Of a DNA stretch of 64,000 nucleotides, positions 22,011 through 58,097 are shown piece by piece. The stretch is from Bacteroidota bacterium (lineage in GTDB: Bacteria; Bacteroidota; Bacteroidia; NS11-12g; UBA955): NCBI GenBank assembly GCA_963169345.1, contig CAUJCT010000048.1, forward strand, positions 1 to 64,000. Direction: 5' to 3'. Position 1 is the stretch's first letter. Each line of letters starts with the position of its first letter. The translations under genes were made by a program, and so were the position numbers. The notes beneath the pieces were generated by a model. The model was not told where the DNA came from and did not search any database. It was given only the letters and a program-made list of their open reading frames with translations.

Positions 22011-22395
22011 ATTTTTTTAATCCTCTTTACCCTGCTAGGGTGTCGGAAATTAAAATAATTTCCGATCATCCATTTCCATTCAAAAAGTTTTCTTTATCAC
22101 TTATTAAAAATTGTGACGGATTAGATAAAGTGCACTAGGAAAATTGATTTAAATAATGGATATGAAATAAGGAGTAATTTTTTTAATTGTATTCACCCTG
22201 CTAGGGTATCTGGAATTAAAATAATTTCCGACCATCCAATTCTATTCAAAAAGTTTTCTTTATCCCTCATTAAAAATTGTGATGGATTAGATAAAGTGCA
22301 CTAGGAAAATTGATTTAAATAATGGATATGAAATAAGGAGTAATTTTTTTAATTGTATTCACCCTGCTAGGGTATCGGAAATTAAAAAAAATAAA
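22011..22395 (+). repeat. Tandem hairpin-repeat array A (three cores, 166-bp period)
   Basis: Fills most of the gap between atpG and the RAYT gene. Three identical cores ACCCTGCTAGGGT at 22029-22041, 22195-22207 and 22361-22373 are exactly 166 bp apart. Each has a T tract on the left and GGAATTAAAA-type sequence on the right; copy 1 adds a second perfect palindrome, TCGGAAATTA-AAA-TAATTTCCGA (22043-22065). The two complete units carry a box GATTAGATAAAGTGCACTA whose ATAAA starts 90 nt from the core centre (22125 and 22291). The third copy is cut short and runs into the RAYT terminator. No coding potential is visible. Confidence 0.9.
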
Positions 22396-22415
22396 AAAGC
22401 CTCCCCGAGCTTTAA

Positions 22416-22472
22416 CAAAAAAAAAGCCTGAATCAAAAGAAATATTGTCTACTTCGTTGATTCAGACTTTTT
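22416..22472 (-). terminator. Intrinsic terminator of the RAYT gene
   Basis: On the minus strand AGTCTGAATCAA and TTGATTCAGGCT pair over 12 positions around a 20-nt loop and run into nine T residues. It lies about 75 nt after the RAYT stop. Confidence 0.85.
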
Positions 22473-22492
22473 AATTATAAATAAATTGATTA

Positions 22493-22507
22493 TAACCTCG
22501 AAGGTTA
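22493..22507. repeat. Palindrome TAACCTCGAAGGTTA downstream of RAYT
   Basis: Perfect 6-bp stem with a CGA loop, the same size class as the other hairpin cores (stem plus 3-nt loop), between the RAYT stop and its terminator. T-rich sequence lies left and A-rich sequence right. It may be another core variant of the same family. Confidence 0.5.
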
Positions 22508-22544
22508 CATTAAAATTTAATCTGATGAAGACCTAAGCTAATTT

Positions 22545-23177
22545 TCAATAATCCCAATCTTCACCAGCTGGTCGATTTAAGTGAAATTCCATCATATTTT
22601 CCAGACCATTAAATGCCTGCAAAATCTCAGATTGAACAATGAAACCATCTCTTCCGAATTTAAAATCCAAAAAAGATGACCAATGCCAATCTTCATATCT
22701 GGCAACAAAATTATGATGCACAGGGTTATAATGAATGTATCTCACAGAATTCAATAAATAACCCAGACTATCAATTTCAAATACTTTATAACTCTTTTGA
22801 AATAAATTGCCTTTACGCTTAGTCATAAGGTTAAATGATTGAGCATAACTGTTAAATAAATTTGAAAACTGCTGATTCACATGATAAAATGGATCTATCG
22901 CTTTTAGTTTTAATAAAGATTTTTGATGCTTTGTCATAGCCAACAGTTTTTGAACTTCAAAATCTTCCATCAGTTTGAGTCTTATGTCTTGTTCTTCATG
23001 GATTTTCACAAGCAGATGTATGTGGTTAGGCATTAAACAATAAGCGTGAATTCTGGCTACTGGTGCGAGCTTTACAACCGCTTTCTGAAGAAATAAATTA
23101 TAATGGGCGGGGTCTTCAAATAAATTATCCCAACCATTAGCACGACTCACCACATGATAAAATTTTCCATGATTCAT
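22545..23177 (-). CDS. REP-associated tyrosine transposase (RAYT, Y1 HUH family)
   Basis: 210-aa single-strand DNA transposase of the IS200-like Y1 superfamily. The HUH motif is HIH in YCLMPNHIHLLVKI at residues 52-54. The probable catalytic tyrosine is Y111 in NLFNSYAQSFNLMTKRKGNL, and the RAYT-type tail YIHYNPVHHNFV and WHWSSF is present. RAYTs nick and rejoin REP hairpins and are single-copy domesticated transposases. Here hairpin repeats flank the gene on both sides in inverted orientation, and its leader shares the unit structure of arrays elsewhere in the window. The ORF is intact with its own terminator, so it is likely functional. ATG gives MNHGKFYHVVSRANGWDNLF, the standard N-terminus. 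Confidence 0.92.
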   Translation of the reverse strand: MNHGKFYHVVSRANGWDNLFEDPAHYNLFLQKAVVKLAPVARIHAYCLMPNHIHLLVKIHEEQDIRLKLMEDFEVQKLLAMTKHQKSLLKLKAIDPFYHVNQQFSNLFNSYAQSFNLMTKRKGNLFQKSYKVFEIDSLGYLLNSVRYIHYNPVHHNFVARYEDWHWSSFLDFKFGRDGFIVQSEILQAFNGLENMMEFHLNRPAGEDWDY

Positions 23178-23197
23178 TCGCTAAAACTAATAATGCG

Positions 23198-23335
23198 AAA
23201 TGATATAAAATAGTTCACTTTATCGAATCTAACCTTATTTTTTGCAAACACCTTCCTTTTTTTTCCTAATTGAAAATGTTCGGAAATAATTTATTTAATT
23301 TGAAACACCCTAGCAGGGTATAAATCGTTAAAAAA
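23198..23335 (-). repeat. Hairpin-repeat unit upstream of RAYT (core E4)
   Basis: Core ACCCTAGCAGGGT at 23307-23319, which is the reverse complement of the array A core. The box read on the minus strand is GATTCGATAAAGTGAACTA (23211-23229), differing from the array A box at two positions. Its ATAAA starts exactly 90 nt from the core centre, as in array A. The unit forms the 5' leader of the RAYT gene on one side, and its A tract touches the start codon of the divergent T9SS gene on the other. Confidence 0.85.
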
Positions 23336-24421
23336 ATGAAAAATCTCCTTACAATATTCCTTTCATGTCTGGTTTCTCAGGCTTTTTCACAGATTATTTT
23401 AGAATCTGCACATGTCATCCCAACCGGAAGACAATACATCATGGCAACTGATAATAAATCGCAAAAATTAGCACCTGCCGGACCTAATCAAAACTGGAAT
23501 TATGCCTCTCTAAACAGCTCAAAGAAAGACACCACAAGAACAGGCATGCCTTTTTGGTACAAAGGTTTTTCTAATTTCCCTCAAAGCAACTACGCCACAA
23601 TCAACAGCACGGATAATAATACGGTGAATTTCTATGAACTTAATGACAATGCTTTTTACAATCATGGTGTATATGCATCAACTGATACTTCACTGAACAT
23701 CGTTAAAATGAAAACCCAAATTTTCCAGTTCCCTGGCCATTTTCAAGATGCTTTTAACGAATCTGATACAATTTTTGGATTATCTCTGGAACTTGGCTTC
23801 GACCCAGATACCGCCGGGCCAATGCCGTTTCTGGATTCTCTGCGTATCTCCACCAGATTTGACAGATTAGTTGAACTAAACGGTTGGGGTAAATTAACTA
23901 CTCCTATTGGAACTTTTGATGCTCTGCGACAAAATACCCGAAATATCATTTCTCAGTTTGTTATGATATACTCTAACGGCAATTGGATTTCAGCACCAAA
24001 ATCTGTTATCGATTACTTCGGTTTATTTATCCCTCAGCCTGATACTGTTCACAATGTTATTTTCATGACCAATAGCGGCGCTTATGGAGCACCCCTGCTG
24101 ACTTACAGCAATAGAAATAAAGATACATCTGCTACGATGAAATGGTTGTTTCAAACTCCTACTAAAAGCTCAGTTGCCAGCTCTAATACTTTCGAATTGA
24201 ATATTTATCCTAATCCATGCAGTGAACATCTTAAACTTGAAATTCCTGGCCTGACTGCACATTATAAAATTGTCAATGTACTGGGACAGGTATTTATAGA
24301 AGGGGATTTCCAGGACAATACAACAGTCGATATTCAGGATTTATCTGAAGGTATTTATTATGTTCAGATTGAATCAGAAAGTGGTACTTTGCTGACCAGG
24401 AAAATAATAGTTACAAATTAA
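23336..24421 (+). CDS. T9SS-exported protein of unknown function
   Basis: 361-aa secreted protein: signal peptide MKNLLTIFLSCLVSQAFSQ, an unassigned beta-rich region (20-280), and a T9SS type A sorting domain from NTFELNIYPNPCSEHLKLEI to the end (GIYYVQIESESG). The N-terminal part gives no family I recognise. The start ATG is joined to the A tract of a hairpin repeat (GTTAAAAAAATG), so its 5' UTR is formed by the repeat, with no clear ribosome site other than the A tract. It ends 2 nt from the convergent L,D-transpeptidase-like gene. Confidence 0.8.
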   Translation: MKNLLTIFLSCLVSQAFSQIILESAHVIPTGRQYIMATDNKSQKLAPAGPNQNWNYASLNSSKKDTTRTGMPFWYKGFSNFPQSNYATINSTDNNTVNFYELNDNAFYNHGVYASTDTSLNIVKMKTQIFQFPGHFQDAFNESDTIFGLSLELGFDPDTAGPMPFLDSLRISTRFDRLVELNGWGKLTTPIGTFDALRQNTRNIISQFVMIYSNGNWISAPKSVIDYFGLFIPQPDTVHNVIFMTNSGAYGAPLLTYSNRNKDTSATMKWLFQTPTKSSVASSNTFELNIYPNPCSEHLKLEIPGLTAHYKIVNVLGQVFIEGDFQDNTTVDIQDLSEGIYYVQIESESGTLLTRKIIVTN

Positions 24422-35109: not shown

Positions 35110-35244
35110 ATTGTCAAGATACGTTTTGTGAACAGGAATTAATTTTTATTGAAAACAGCAGTTTTTTTTATAAAGGATGAAGAGAGTTTCAGAATTATTT
35201 TAATTTCCAACACCCTGGCAGGGTATTTTAAATTAAAATAATTC
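35110..35244 (-). repeat. Single hairpin-repeat unit with 53-bp extended palindrome (core E5)
   Basis: Core ACCCTGGCAGGGT at 35212-35224. It is enclosed by a perfect 15-bp inverted repeat, GAATTATTTTAATTT (35192-35206) and AAATTAAAATAATTC (35230-35244). A diverged box (minus strand CACAAAACGTATCTTGAC) begins about 89 nt from the core centre. It lies between the divergent mfd and vWA genes, where a terminator would make no sense. Confidence 0.8.
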
Positions 35245-39640: not shown

Positions 39641-39775
39641 AATTTCCAAGTCCTTCTTATCGAATCTTACTTTATTTTTTTCGAAACAACGTGAATTCTT
39701 TTTAAAAGAAAATTTAAGACTTGCATTTTTTTTAACTTCAAACACCCTGGCAGGGTGGAGTAAATTAAAAAAATT
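39641..39775 (-). repeat. Single hairpin-repeat unit (core E6) between E1 and recJ
   Basis: Core CACCCTGGCAGGGTG at 39743-39757 with eight T residues on the left and seven A residues on the right. On the plus strand the box TTATCGAATCTTAC matches the RAYT-leader unit TTATCGAATCTAAC, and its reference base (39660) is exactly 90 nt from the core centre. The unit fills half of the 263-bp gap; a recJ promoter box follows. Confidence 0.85.
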
Positions 39776-55103: not shown

Positions 55104-56470
55104 GAGAGTTACTATTAATATCAGGATTAGGTGTATTATCACTTTTCAGTGGTCTGTTAAACATCAGAAAAGGGTTTCTCCTTGTCGTTATTGTTGGCTT
55201 ACTGCTCAACATCGGATTTAGTATAGCCGACTGGAACGGCAATGAAGATGTTTATGGCATGATGCTAATGGATAATTTTGCCTTAGCCTTTAACGCTTCA
55301 TTTTCTGCTTTAGCCATTCTTTGGTTCATAAGCGCTCATAGTTATTTCAACAATGACAATAATTTCTCTGACCATTTTGCGTTGGTACTCTTTTCAATAT
55401 GCGGTGGTTTAGTTTTAGTGTCATTCTCTAATATGGCCATGCTGTTTCTTGGAATCGAAATTCTTTCTATCCCGTTATTTGTTTTAGTGGGTAGTGATAA
55501 GACTAAGCTTTCTTCCAACGAAGCTGCATTCAAATATTTCCTTTTAGGCGCATTTGCTTCCGCATTCCTTCTGTTCGGTATAGCATTGGTATACGGCGCA
55601 ACCGGTAGTTTCGAAAATGCAAAAATAGCTTCTGTGCTTGCAGGTGGTTCTGTCAATCAGTTAGCTCTTGCAGGAATGTTAATGATGATGGTGGCTATGT
55701 CATTTAAGGTATCAGCAGCACCATTTCATTTCTGGGCACCAGATGTTTACCAGGGCGCACCGGGATACATCACAGCCTTTATGGCAACTGTTGTAAAGAC
55801 GGTTGCATTTGCAGCATTTTTCCGACTCTTTTCCAGCACATTTGCCAGCATGCAATTTGAATACAAAGTATTATTTGCAATTGCTGCGGCACTAACTCTG
55901 CTAATTTCCAATATAACAGCTTCAGTACAAACCAATGTAAAGAGAATGTTGGCATACTCAAGTATTTCACATGCAGGATTTATGATGGTCACCCTGCTGT
56001 GTATGAATTCGGGTACTGTGGGCATCTTATATTTCTACACATTGGTTTATAGTATTTCAAGTATTGCAGCATTTACCATATTTGAGGTAGTTAGAAGCAA
56101 TAGCAATGGAGGTGAAGACATTGATACCTTTAAGGGATTGGCAAAACGCAGTCCTTTAATGGCAGCAGTCATGACACTGGCCATGTTATCCATGTCGGGT
56201 ATACCACCATTGGCAGGTTTTTTTGCGAAATATTTAGTTTTCACATCAGCAATAGAAAATGGTTATTTGTGGCTGGCAATAATAGGAATTGTAGCATCTT
56301 TAATTGCGGTTTACTATTATTTCAAGGTCATTATAGCGATGTATGGACATCAAAGTGATTTAGCAAAAATAGAGGTCAGTGTATTGCACAAATTAGTTCT
56401 AATAGTCTGCGCATTGGCTTTGTTGTTGCTGGTGGTTTTCCCTAATCTGGTGACAGGGGTATTGGGATAA
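55100..56470 (+). CDS. nuoN: NADH-quinone oxidoreductase subunit N
   Basis: 456-aa antiporter-like proton pump closing the operon. LFLGIEILSIPLFVLVG and FHFWAPDVYQGAPGYITAF are typical, and SSISHAGFMMV follows. No classical terminator comes after it; instead the T tract of the first hairpin repeat of array B begins 7 nt past the stop. Confidence 0.97.
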   Translation: MRELLLISGLGVLSLFSGLLNIRKGFLLVVIVGLLLNIGFSIADWNGNEDVYGMMLMDNFALAFNASFSALAILWFISAHSYFNNDNNFSDHFALVLFSICGGLVLVSFSNMAMLFLGIEILSIPLFVLVGSDKTKLSSNEAAFKYFLLGAFASAFLLFGIALVYGATGSFENAKIASVLAGGSVNQLALAGMLMMMVAMSFKVSAAPFHFWAPDVYQGAPGYITAFMATVVKTVAFAAFFRLFSSTFASMQFEYKVLFAIAAALTLLISNITASVQTNVKRMLAYSSISHAGFMMVTLLCMNSGTVGILYFYTLVYSISSIAAFTIFEVVRSNSNGGEDIDTFKGLAKRSPLMAAVMTLAMLSMSGIPPLAGFFAKYLVFTSAIENGYLWLAIIGIVASLIAVYYYFKVIIAMYGHQSDLAKIEVSVLHKLVLIVCALALLLLVVFPNLVTGVLG

Positions 56471-56476
56471 AATATA

Positions 56477-57057
56477 TTTTTTTTAATCTCCTATACACTG
56501 CTAGGGTGGTTGAAATTAAAATAATTATCCCGATCCATCTTTCCTTTAAAAAATATTCTGCATTACCCGATAAAAATTAGTGTTGTTTCAATAAAACGCG
56601 TTTGGCTTTTTGATTTAAAAACACGAATTGGTTAGAGTTTGATTTTTTTACTCTCAGATACACTGCTAGGGTGGTTGAAATTAAAATAATTATCCCGACC
56701 CATCTTTCCTTTAAAAAATATTCTGCATTACCCAATAAAAACTAGTGTTGTTTCAATAAAACGCGCTTGACTTTTTAATTTAAAAACACGAATAGGTTAG
56801 AGTTGGATTTTTTTAATCTCAGATACACTGCTAGGGTGTTTGAAATTAAAATAATTATCCCGGCGCATCTTTCCTTTAAAAAATATTCAGCATAACCCAA
56901 TAAAAATTAGTGTAGTTTCAATAAAACGCGCTTGACTTTTTAATTTAAAAACACGAATTGGTTAGAGTTGGATTTTTTTAATCCGTTTATCCGCCTCAGG
57001 CGGATGTTTGAAATTAAAATAATTATTTACTTCCCTTTCATTTCCGATTTTAAAACG
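56477..57057 (+). repeat. Tandem hairpin-repeat array B (four cores, 165-166-bp period)
   Basis: Occupies most of the 748-bp gap after nuoN. Cores ACACTGCTAGGGT lie at 56495-56507, 56660-56672 and 56825-56837; a fourth, ATCCGCCTCAGGCGGAT, is at 56989-57005 with the same flanks (T7AATC left, GTTTGAAATTAAAATAATT right). Each of the first three units has TTTCAATAAAACGCGCTTG or a near variant with ATAAA starting exactly 90 nt from the core centre (56591, 56756, 56921). Spacers resemble array A only weakly, but phase and boxes agree. No gene is visible. Confidence 0.9.
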
Positions 57058-57060
57058 AAT

Positions 57061-57191
57061 ATTCCAAGTCTGCTTTATTGAATATAAACCTATTTTTTTC
57101 TAAGAAGCATAAAATTTTGTGAATGGAATTACTTGAACCGGAGTTTTTTTAATTTTTGACACCCTAGCAGGGTGTTGATTATTAAAAAAAA
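57061..57191 (-). repeat. Inverted hairpin-repeat unit closing array B (core E11)
   Basis: Core ACACCCTAGCAGGGTGT (7-bp stem) at 57159-57175, enclosed by TTTTTTTAAT and ATTAAAAAAA. Its orientation is opposite to the four cores before it, but it stays in phase, 170 bp from the last. The box CTTTATTGAATATAAACC at 57073-57090 matches the RAYT-leader unit, 89 nt from the core centre. TTCCAAGTC just left of it is shared with the 39.7-kb unit. Confidence 0.85.
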
Positions 57192-57218: not shown

Positions 57219-58097
57219 TTACATTAATAATATATTCAGAATCCCCAGTACCATTAGAACTTTGTACAAGGTGTTCACTTGCTTGTATCTGTTGCGATGA
57301 ATCAGATAACCGCTCAATGCTATGACCGCCATACTCAATGCAATAAAATAATTACGAGCGCTCAATCCTTCGTAGAATAAAATGCCCAGTCCCCCACAAA
57401 ATGATAAAACCATAACAAAACCAAGAAATGCACGTGCTTTCTCCTGTCCCAAAGAAACCGGAATTGAATGAATCTCTAAAGCTAAATCACCATTATAATT
57501 GATAAATTGTTTCACAACCTCTCTGCTGTATACCAAACTCATGTAAAAAGCCCCATAAACAAATATAAATGGGTAGTATTTTGAGAAATGCAATAACACA
57601 GCGAAAAAACAGGCTACACTTAATGCCGATGCTACGAACTCTTTAATAAAAGCCATCTTCTGCAGCTTATGTGAATACAACCATAATGCTGAAATAAATA
57701 TCATAAAAAAGACCCCAATTTTAAAAGAGGACATAAATGCCACTGTTACGGCTATCAAATTAAATAGAATATAAAAATTAAGCTGACTCCGCTTACTTAC
57801 TGTTCTGTTAAAAAGTGTTGAATGTGGCCTGTTGATGAGGTCCTTCTCAAAATCGTAGAAATTATTTATGATGAAACCTCCTGCAATGCTAAATATTGAT
57901 GCCAGAACGATGCCGTGCAACTTAAAATCCACCAACAGATCATGCAAGGTTTGTGGCTCATCCCGCATCAAAACAAATGCGGATAAATACTGGGCAAAGA
58001 TGGTCAATAAAATATTATACCACCTGACTATCGAAAGCAATGCCAGCCACTTAAGCGCTCTCGGACTTTTACTTTCTGCTTGGCCCGAAGCTGTCAT
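57219..58097 (-). CDS. UbiA-family prenyltransferase (possible geranylgeranylglyceryl-phosphate type)
   Basis: 292-aa integral membrane prenyltransferase with about eight helices. The first Asp-rich motif NNFYDFEKDLINRPHS (near residues 77-92) is intact and resembles digeranylgeranylglyceryl-phosphate and chlorophyll synthases. The second motif, usually REx2KDx2Dx2GD, reads REVVKQFINYNGD, so two of its Asp are Gln and Asn. It is the last gene of a mevalonate-pathway operon, 5 nt after mevalonate kinase, so it likely uses an isoprenoid diphosphate made by that pathway. The acceptor is unknown; archaeal-type lipid, quinone or other prenyl product are all possible. Confidence 0.75.
   Translation of the reverse strand: MTASGQAESKSPRALKWLALLSIVRWYNILLTIFAQYLSAFVLMRDEPQTLHDLLVDFKLHGIVLASIFSIAGGFIINNFYDFEKDLINRPHSTLFNRTVSKRSQLNFYILFNLIAVTVAFMSSFKIGVFFMIFISALWLYSHKLQKMAFIKEFVASALSVACFFAVLLHFSKYYPFIFVYGAFYMSLVYSREVVKQFINYNGDLALEIHSIPVSLGQEKARAFLGFVMVLSFCGGLGILFYEGLSARNYFIALSMAVIALSGYLIHRNRYKQVNTLYKVLMVLGILNILLM

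Follow-up and report, generated by a model that had tools for sequence, protein, structure and literature searches.

In a Bacteroidota genome, the hairpin core of a REP-like palindromic repeat (P) has been replaced inside existing P arms by a different hairpin (core B, TCCGCC-NNN-GGCGGA), which we read as an independent 15-bp palindromic repeat and not as P's own. About 76 P copies are present in the genome, at least 71 of which carry the usual core (core A) and five core B; since the tips of these five have been replaced by a widespread 15-letter hairpin, exchange between unrelated hairpins can involve a very short DNA segment. One swapped copy lies in the window (the whole 64,000-nucleotide stretch analyzed here), where it is the fourth P element of an array designated array B (56973-57024, forward strand, sequence read directly). 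Its core, ATCCGCC-TCA-GGCGGAT, occupies 56989-57005 (no strand assigned), with the 15-bp unit TCCGCCTCAGGCGGA at 56990-57004, and the family arms are intact: T7 at 56973-56979, AAT at 56980-56982 and GTTTGAAATTAAAATAATT at 57006-57024. Direct reading thus confirmed an earlier note made from the sequence, which had reported this core with family arms on both sides. The preceding three cores of the array (56496, 56661, and 56826) are CACTGCTAGGGTG. The form ACACTGCTAGGGT, which the note had taken as the normal core, holds as the local variant of array B and not as the family consensus, which is CACCCT-GCT/GCC-AGGGTG genome-wide. The exact 15-mer of the swapped core does not occur a second time in the window (shuffled sequences gave 0 occurrences), and no match to a known RNA family was found in the window.

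In arrays, P alternates with a non-coding spacer (S) of ~115 bp, giving a period of ~165-172 bp. Array B sits between convergent genes, namely a Proton_antipo_M ORF (NADH dehydrogenase/antiporter subunit) that ends at 56470 and, on the minus strand, a UbiA-family ORF (57219-58097). Besides the swapped copy, it contains three core-A elements on the plus strand (56478-56526, 56643-56691, and 56808-56856) and a fifth, also with core A, in the opposite orientation (57142-57190, minus strand); the right arm of the third and the spacer upstream of it match the flanks of the swapped copy. Its spacers were delimited with nhmmer at 56534-56639 (E 1.6e-20), 56699-56806, and 56865-56971 on the plus strand and at 57038-57141, between the swapped copy and the fifth element, on the minus strand. 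Array A (22012-22392, plus strand) consists of three core-A elements (22012-22060, 22178-22226, and 22344-22392) and two S spacers, and single core-A elements lie on the minus strand at 35193-35241 and 39725-39773. Besides the spacers of both arrays, the S model detected lone copies at 35 kb and 39.7 kb as well as weak remnants flanking a transposase-like gene, RAYT1 (22545-23177, minus strand), on either side. Upstream of this gene is another core-A element (23288-23336, minus strand), separated from the start codon by a stretch that contains a weak S remnant (23197-23247). Inward-facing P-S units therefore enclose RAYT1 at 22012-23336, in the order P>S>P>S>P, S remnant, RAYT1, S remnant<, P<. 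The layout of array B, P>S>P>S>P>S>P'<S<P (P' being the swapped copy), resembles that of the RAYT1 locus without the gene. At a convergent P pair elsewhere in the genome, the centre is occupied by another hairpin, GAGGATTTTG-CTAGTT-CAAAATCCTC, at a position where P might have been expected.

The P family was characterized in the host assembly (3.63 Mb in 59 contigs, many with ends in these repeats), which represents one genome of the species. P has A/T-rich arms around a hairpin with a 6-bp stem and a 3-nt loop, and an exact fit to TTWTTTTAA-N18-48-TTAAAAWAA was obtained 73 times in the genome versus once for a mirror control. Core A is CACCCT-GCT-AGGGTG; an alignment of 71 core-A copies shows ACCCT-GC(T/C)-AGGGT to be near-invariant, and the outer arms TTTTTAA / TTAAAAA pair with few or no exceptions. 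No core between A and B was found among the P copies, so that the 71 core-A copies without a single intermediate bear out the earlier claim that point mutation is an unlikely route; what is retained is the architecture (short GC stem, loop of 3 nt), not the sequence, also as claimed. Other core types within the same arms, which the note had thought worth seeking, did not emerge: the P copies have just the two types plus a hybrid of them. No matches to P were detected in viral contigs or plasmids. As the arm pattern exceeds the control in the host genome only and falls to control level in the other sampled genomes of the taxonomic family, P is specific to the host species among those sampled. 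For the same reason, core B was rejected as a relic of common P ancestry.

RAYT1 encodes a 210-aa protein similar to Y1/REP-associated tyrosine transposases, with the HUH motif NHIH and the motif YIHYNP. It scored above the cut-off of Pfam Y1_Tnp, reached 63.7 bits against the NCBIfam REP-associated tyrosine transposase model (under the cut-off of 80), and gave a single, weak match in PDB, TnpA_REP 4er8 (E 0.03). Like REPs, which are intergenic palindromes of 20-65 nt in many copies that flank a RAYT gene, P is multicopy and intergenic (in array B) and lies with S on either side of RAYT1; however, it lacks the 5' GT[AG]G at the hairpin foot, where the consensus is an A-rich N6 followed by CA-CCCT on one strand and TTTCCRA-CACCCT on the other. 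RAYT subclass 2.6, from Bacteroidetes, has been described as having 'atypical secondary structures' at its flanks (PMC6006769). Of the subclass motifs NH[LIV]H and YIH[QN]NP, RAYT1 has the first as NHIH, but YIHYNP in place of the second (motif reading). Given the absent foot and the atypical structures flanking subclass 2.6 RAYTs, P is best called REP-like. Two RAYT-like genes are present in the genome: RAYT1, bracketed by core-A P and S remnants, and RAYT2, which adjoins another, unrelated hairpin (AACCTGCCAGGTT / CAACCTGGAAGGTTG). The suggestion that a RAYT paralogue might serve the new core was thus not borne out, no separate RAYT for core B being found in the genome. Near RAYT relatives in the taxonomic family, very long perfect palindromes were observed (stems of 14-20 bp, 3-nt loop, often ACCTTCCAGGT-like), each genome having its own sequence.

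Five P elements, each on a different contig, carry the core-B hairpin between their arms: C31:15101, C42:10349, C48:56990 (the array-B copy), C20:7595, and C56:72773, the last with one mismatch. In the array-B copy and C56:72773 the whole core (11 nt, CCCTGCTAGGG) is replaced, and in the other three only CCCTG (5 nt), with CTAGGGT still adjoining the new hairpin. All five copies have an identical left junction, and the loops vary (TGA, TGT, and TCA). With the core excluded, the flanks of C42:10349 and of the array-B copy find their closest match in the core-A neighbour of their own array, which argues that the core changed in place within an existing P. These neighbours provide a comparison of filled and empty sites within one genome, and the description of the hairpin as an exchangeable cassette holds in the sense of such a swap. 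Judged by structure, at least two swaps would have been independent, though not necessarily all five. The hybrid junction CTAG-TCCGCC, present in three copies in the host genome, was absent from the 395 other Bacteroidia genomes sampled, and the idea of an ancestral long hairpin (CTAG-TCCGCC...GGCGGA-CTAG) that decayed into the two cores was rejected on this ground.

Outside P, core B was found both in the same genome and across the class, which removes the concern that the window might hold a sole copy of a hairpin occurring nowhere else and agrees with the conjecture of the earlier note that the hairpin exists as a repeat of its own. In the host genome it is native to another repeat family (Q, ~16 copies; ...CGAACTA-TCCGCCATAGGCGG-WGGGATGGCGCTGAAAGATTCGCAGATGAT...), whose members have a TCCGCC-ATA-GGCGG core, ~200 bp of common flanks, and a hairpin with decayed variants. 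Direct copying from Q would be possible, but the loops differ, that of Q being mainly ATA; no donor with a TCA or TGA loop was found outside P in the host genome. Within the taxonomic family, 14 of 70 genomes contain core B, and the Bacteroidia sample has 501 sites (118 of 396 genomes), compared with 77 sites for a mirror-image hairpin of identical composition, which is thus ~6.5 times rarer. The contexts of core B are mutually unrelated, ranging from terminator-like stems and other repeats to truncated tRNA-Met(CAT) copies, such that it has the properties of a nano-palindromic repeat (a palindrome of very few bases that recurs in many unrelated settings far more often than by chance). A modest enrichment at the tips of longer stems was detected in an unbiased set (7 of 66 sites versus 1.6 expected) and was absent in a tRNA-biased set; a general rule that core B sits at hairpin tips was therefore discarded.

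In the truncated tRNA-Met(CAT) copies, the 10 nt after CATA (ACCCTAAGGC or ACCCGAAGGT) are replaced by the 15-nt TCCGCCTNAGGCGGA, which puts the hairpin where the 3' anticodon arm would be. When 84,980 species were scanned for TTCATATCCGCCTNAGGCGGAC, 48 such loci were obtained, 47 of them in Bacteroidota by record title and the remaining one with the hairpin layout of a searched relative. An intact tRNA-Met is present in the fetched stretch at 35 of the 48 loci. At 27 there is a small same-strand GIY-YIG ORF, in no case farther than ~510 bp from the hairpin. Modules composed of an intact tRNA-Met(CAT), a small GIY-YIG ORF, and truncated tRNA-Met copies with the hairpin recur in Bacteroidota. 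Further TCC...GGA palindromes (TCCCGATNNNNATCGGGA and the like) also lie near GIY-YIG genes, including in the host genome, and TCCCGATAGCTATCGGGA, TCCCGCA..TGCGGGA, and TCCCGTA..TACGGGA were observed near such genes or in tRNA-like fragments, again including the host genome.

It is fairly probable that two unrelated repeats meet in the swapped copies, namely the REP-like P and an independent 15-bp unit that would have been swapped in by short-patch template switching or break repair and spread by conversion, leaving P copies that are predicted to be poor substrates of RAYT1. Judging from linkage, RAYT1 probably helped to spread or amplify the P-S units. The likeliest and most economical route to the swap would be template switching or break repair at a stalled P hairpin, by which the new hairpin was copied in as a short patch, followed by short-tract conversion between P copies that spread the hybrid. 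The junctions in P and in the tRNA copies represent replacements, with 5, 10, or 11 nt lost and 15-16 nt gained, and as no target-site duplication accompanies them a classical transposase is unlikely; enzyme-guided cleavage could be an alternative in view of the left junction shared by the five copies. In Stenotrophomonas REPs, changing the loop GCT to its reverse complement AGC severely affected RAYT cleavage and binding (PMC8266576), and core A has the same GCT loop that is critical there. Because both loop and stem are read by RAYTs, and the loop is now TCA or TGA instead of GCT, the core-B copies are predicted by analogy to have lost recognition by RAYT1.

A single ancestral swap, after which whole elements with core B were moved by RAYT1 (or RAYT2), is unlikely: the three hybrids on three contigs have exactly equal structure and a RAYT gene is at hand in the genome, but the loops differ among the copies, and the arms and spacers of C42:10349 and of the array-B copy match their array neighbours and not one another. 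Convergence, by which core B would be a transcription terminator or RNA stem of ordinary type with repeated origins, is consistent with those sites that form perfect stem tips of terminator-like hairpins; it appears highly improbable given the rarity of the mirror hairpin of equal composition and the replacement of defined segments in P and tRNA copies by an identical 15-mer. The tRNA loci raise the question of whether TCC...GGA palindromes are actively mobile and placed by a nuclease-driven process tied to small GIY-YIG genes acting on tRNAs, with P elements as side targets. The frequency of GIY-YIG ORFs at these loci and the other TCC..GGA hairpins near such genes point in this direction, but no GIY-YIG gene was found adjoining a core-B P copy and the link may merely reflect hairpins that mark dead tRNA copies, so we regard such a process as very unlikely to account for the swap. 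More broadly, it is conceivable, if quite unlikely, that TCC...GGA palindromes of Bacteroidota constitute a mobile hairpin class (15-18 bp) whose members overwrite other hairpins (REP tips, tRNA arms, and terminator loops) by a process of their own, possibly one linked to small GIY-YIG nucleases homing into tRNA genes, and that the array-B swap is one of its products.

The exchange of a hairpin that is read by a transposase suggests a route by which REP copies might be silenced or re-specified. As near-identical arrays hold filled and unfilled versions of one site, the spread of very small palindromic repeats, a poorly understood process, becomes testable. In addition, the recurrence of this hairpin across Bacteroidota, in truncated copies of tRNA-Met next to GIY-YIG genes, ties two phenomena together, a connection that was not found in the open-access literature searched.

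Among known systems, P is most similar to REP/REPtron elements with TnpA_REP, sharing a high-copy, clustered intergenic palindrome by a Y1 transposase-like gene and a hairpin with a 3-nt loop; it differs in lacking the GT[AG]G foot, in its A/T-rich outer arms, and in forming direct P-S arrays of the above period, whereas the REP standard is an inverted doublet. In this respect the description of RAYT subclass 2.6, with its atypical flanking structures, would fit best (PMC6006769). For core B, shared features and differences are found in three other systems. Rickettsia palindromic elements are, like core B, small palindromes in unrelated contexts, but they are much longer than core B and often lie in coding regions. 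Elhai et al. in 2008 reportedly described very small mobile repeated elements (small dispersed repeats) in cyanobacteria, also inside other repeats and RNA genes; this work is cited in PMC3116915. The elements have been summarized as dispersed repeats of ~20 bp that may be mobile (PMC2884548); they belong to another phylum and have another sequence, and core B is a 15-bp perfect hairpin that replaces sequence instead of adding to it. Yeast mitochondrial GC clusters merge and shuffle (PMC4478555). Like core B, they are short GC-rich palindromes in an A/T-rich genome that merge or reshuffle with other palindromes; unlike core B, which shows no target duplication, they are mitochondrial and have short direct repeats at their flanks. 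The likeness of core B to the cyanobacterial repeats and the yeast GC clusters would thus be one of behaviour, not of membership.
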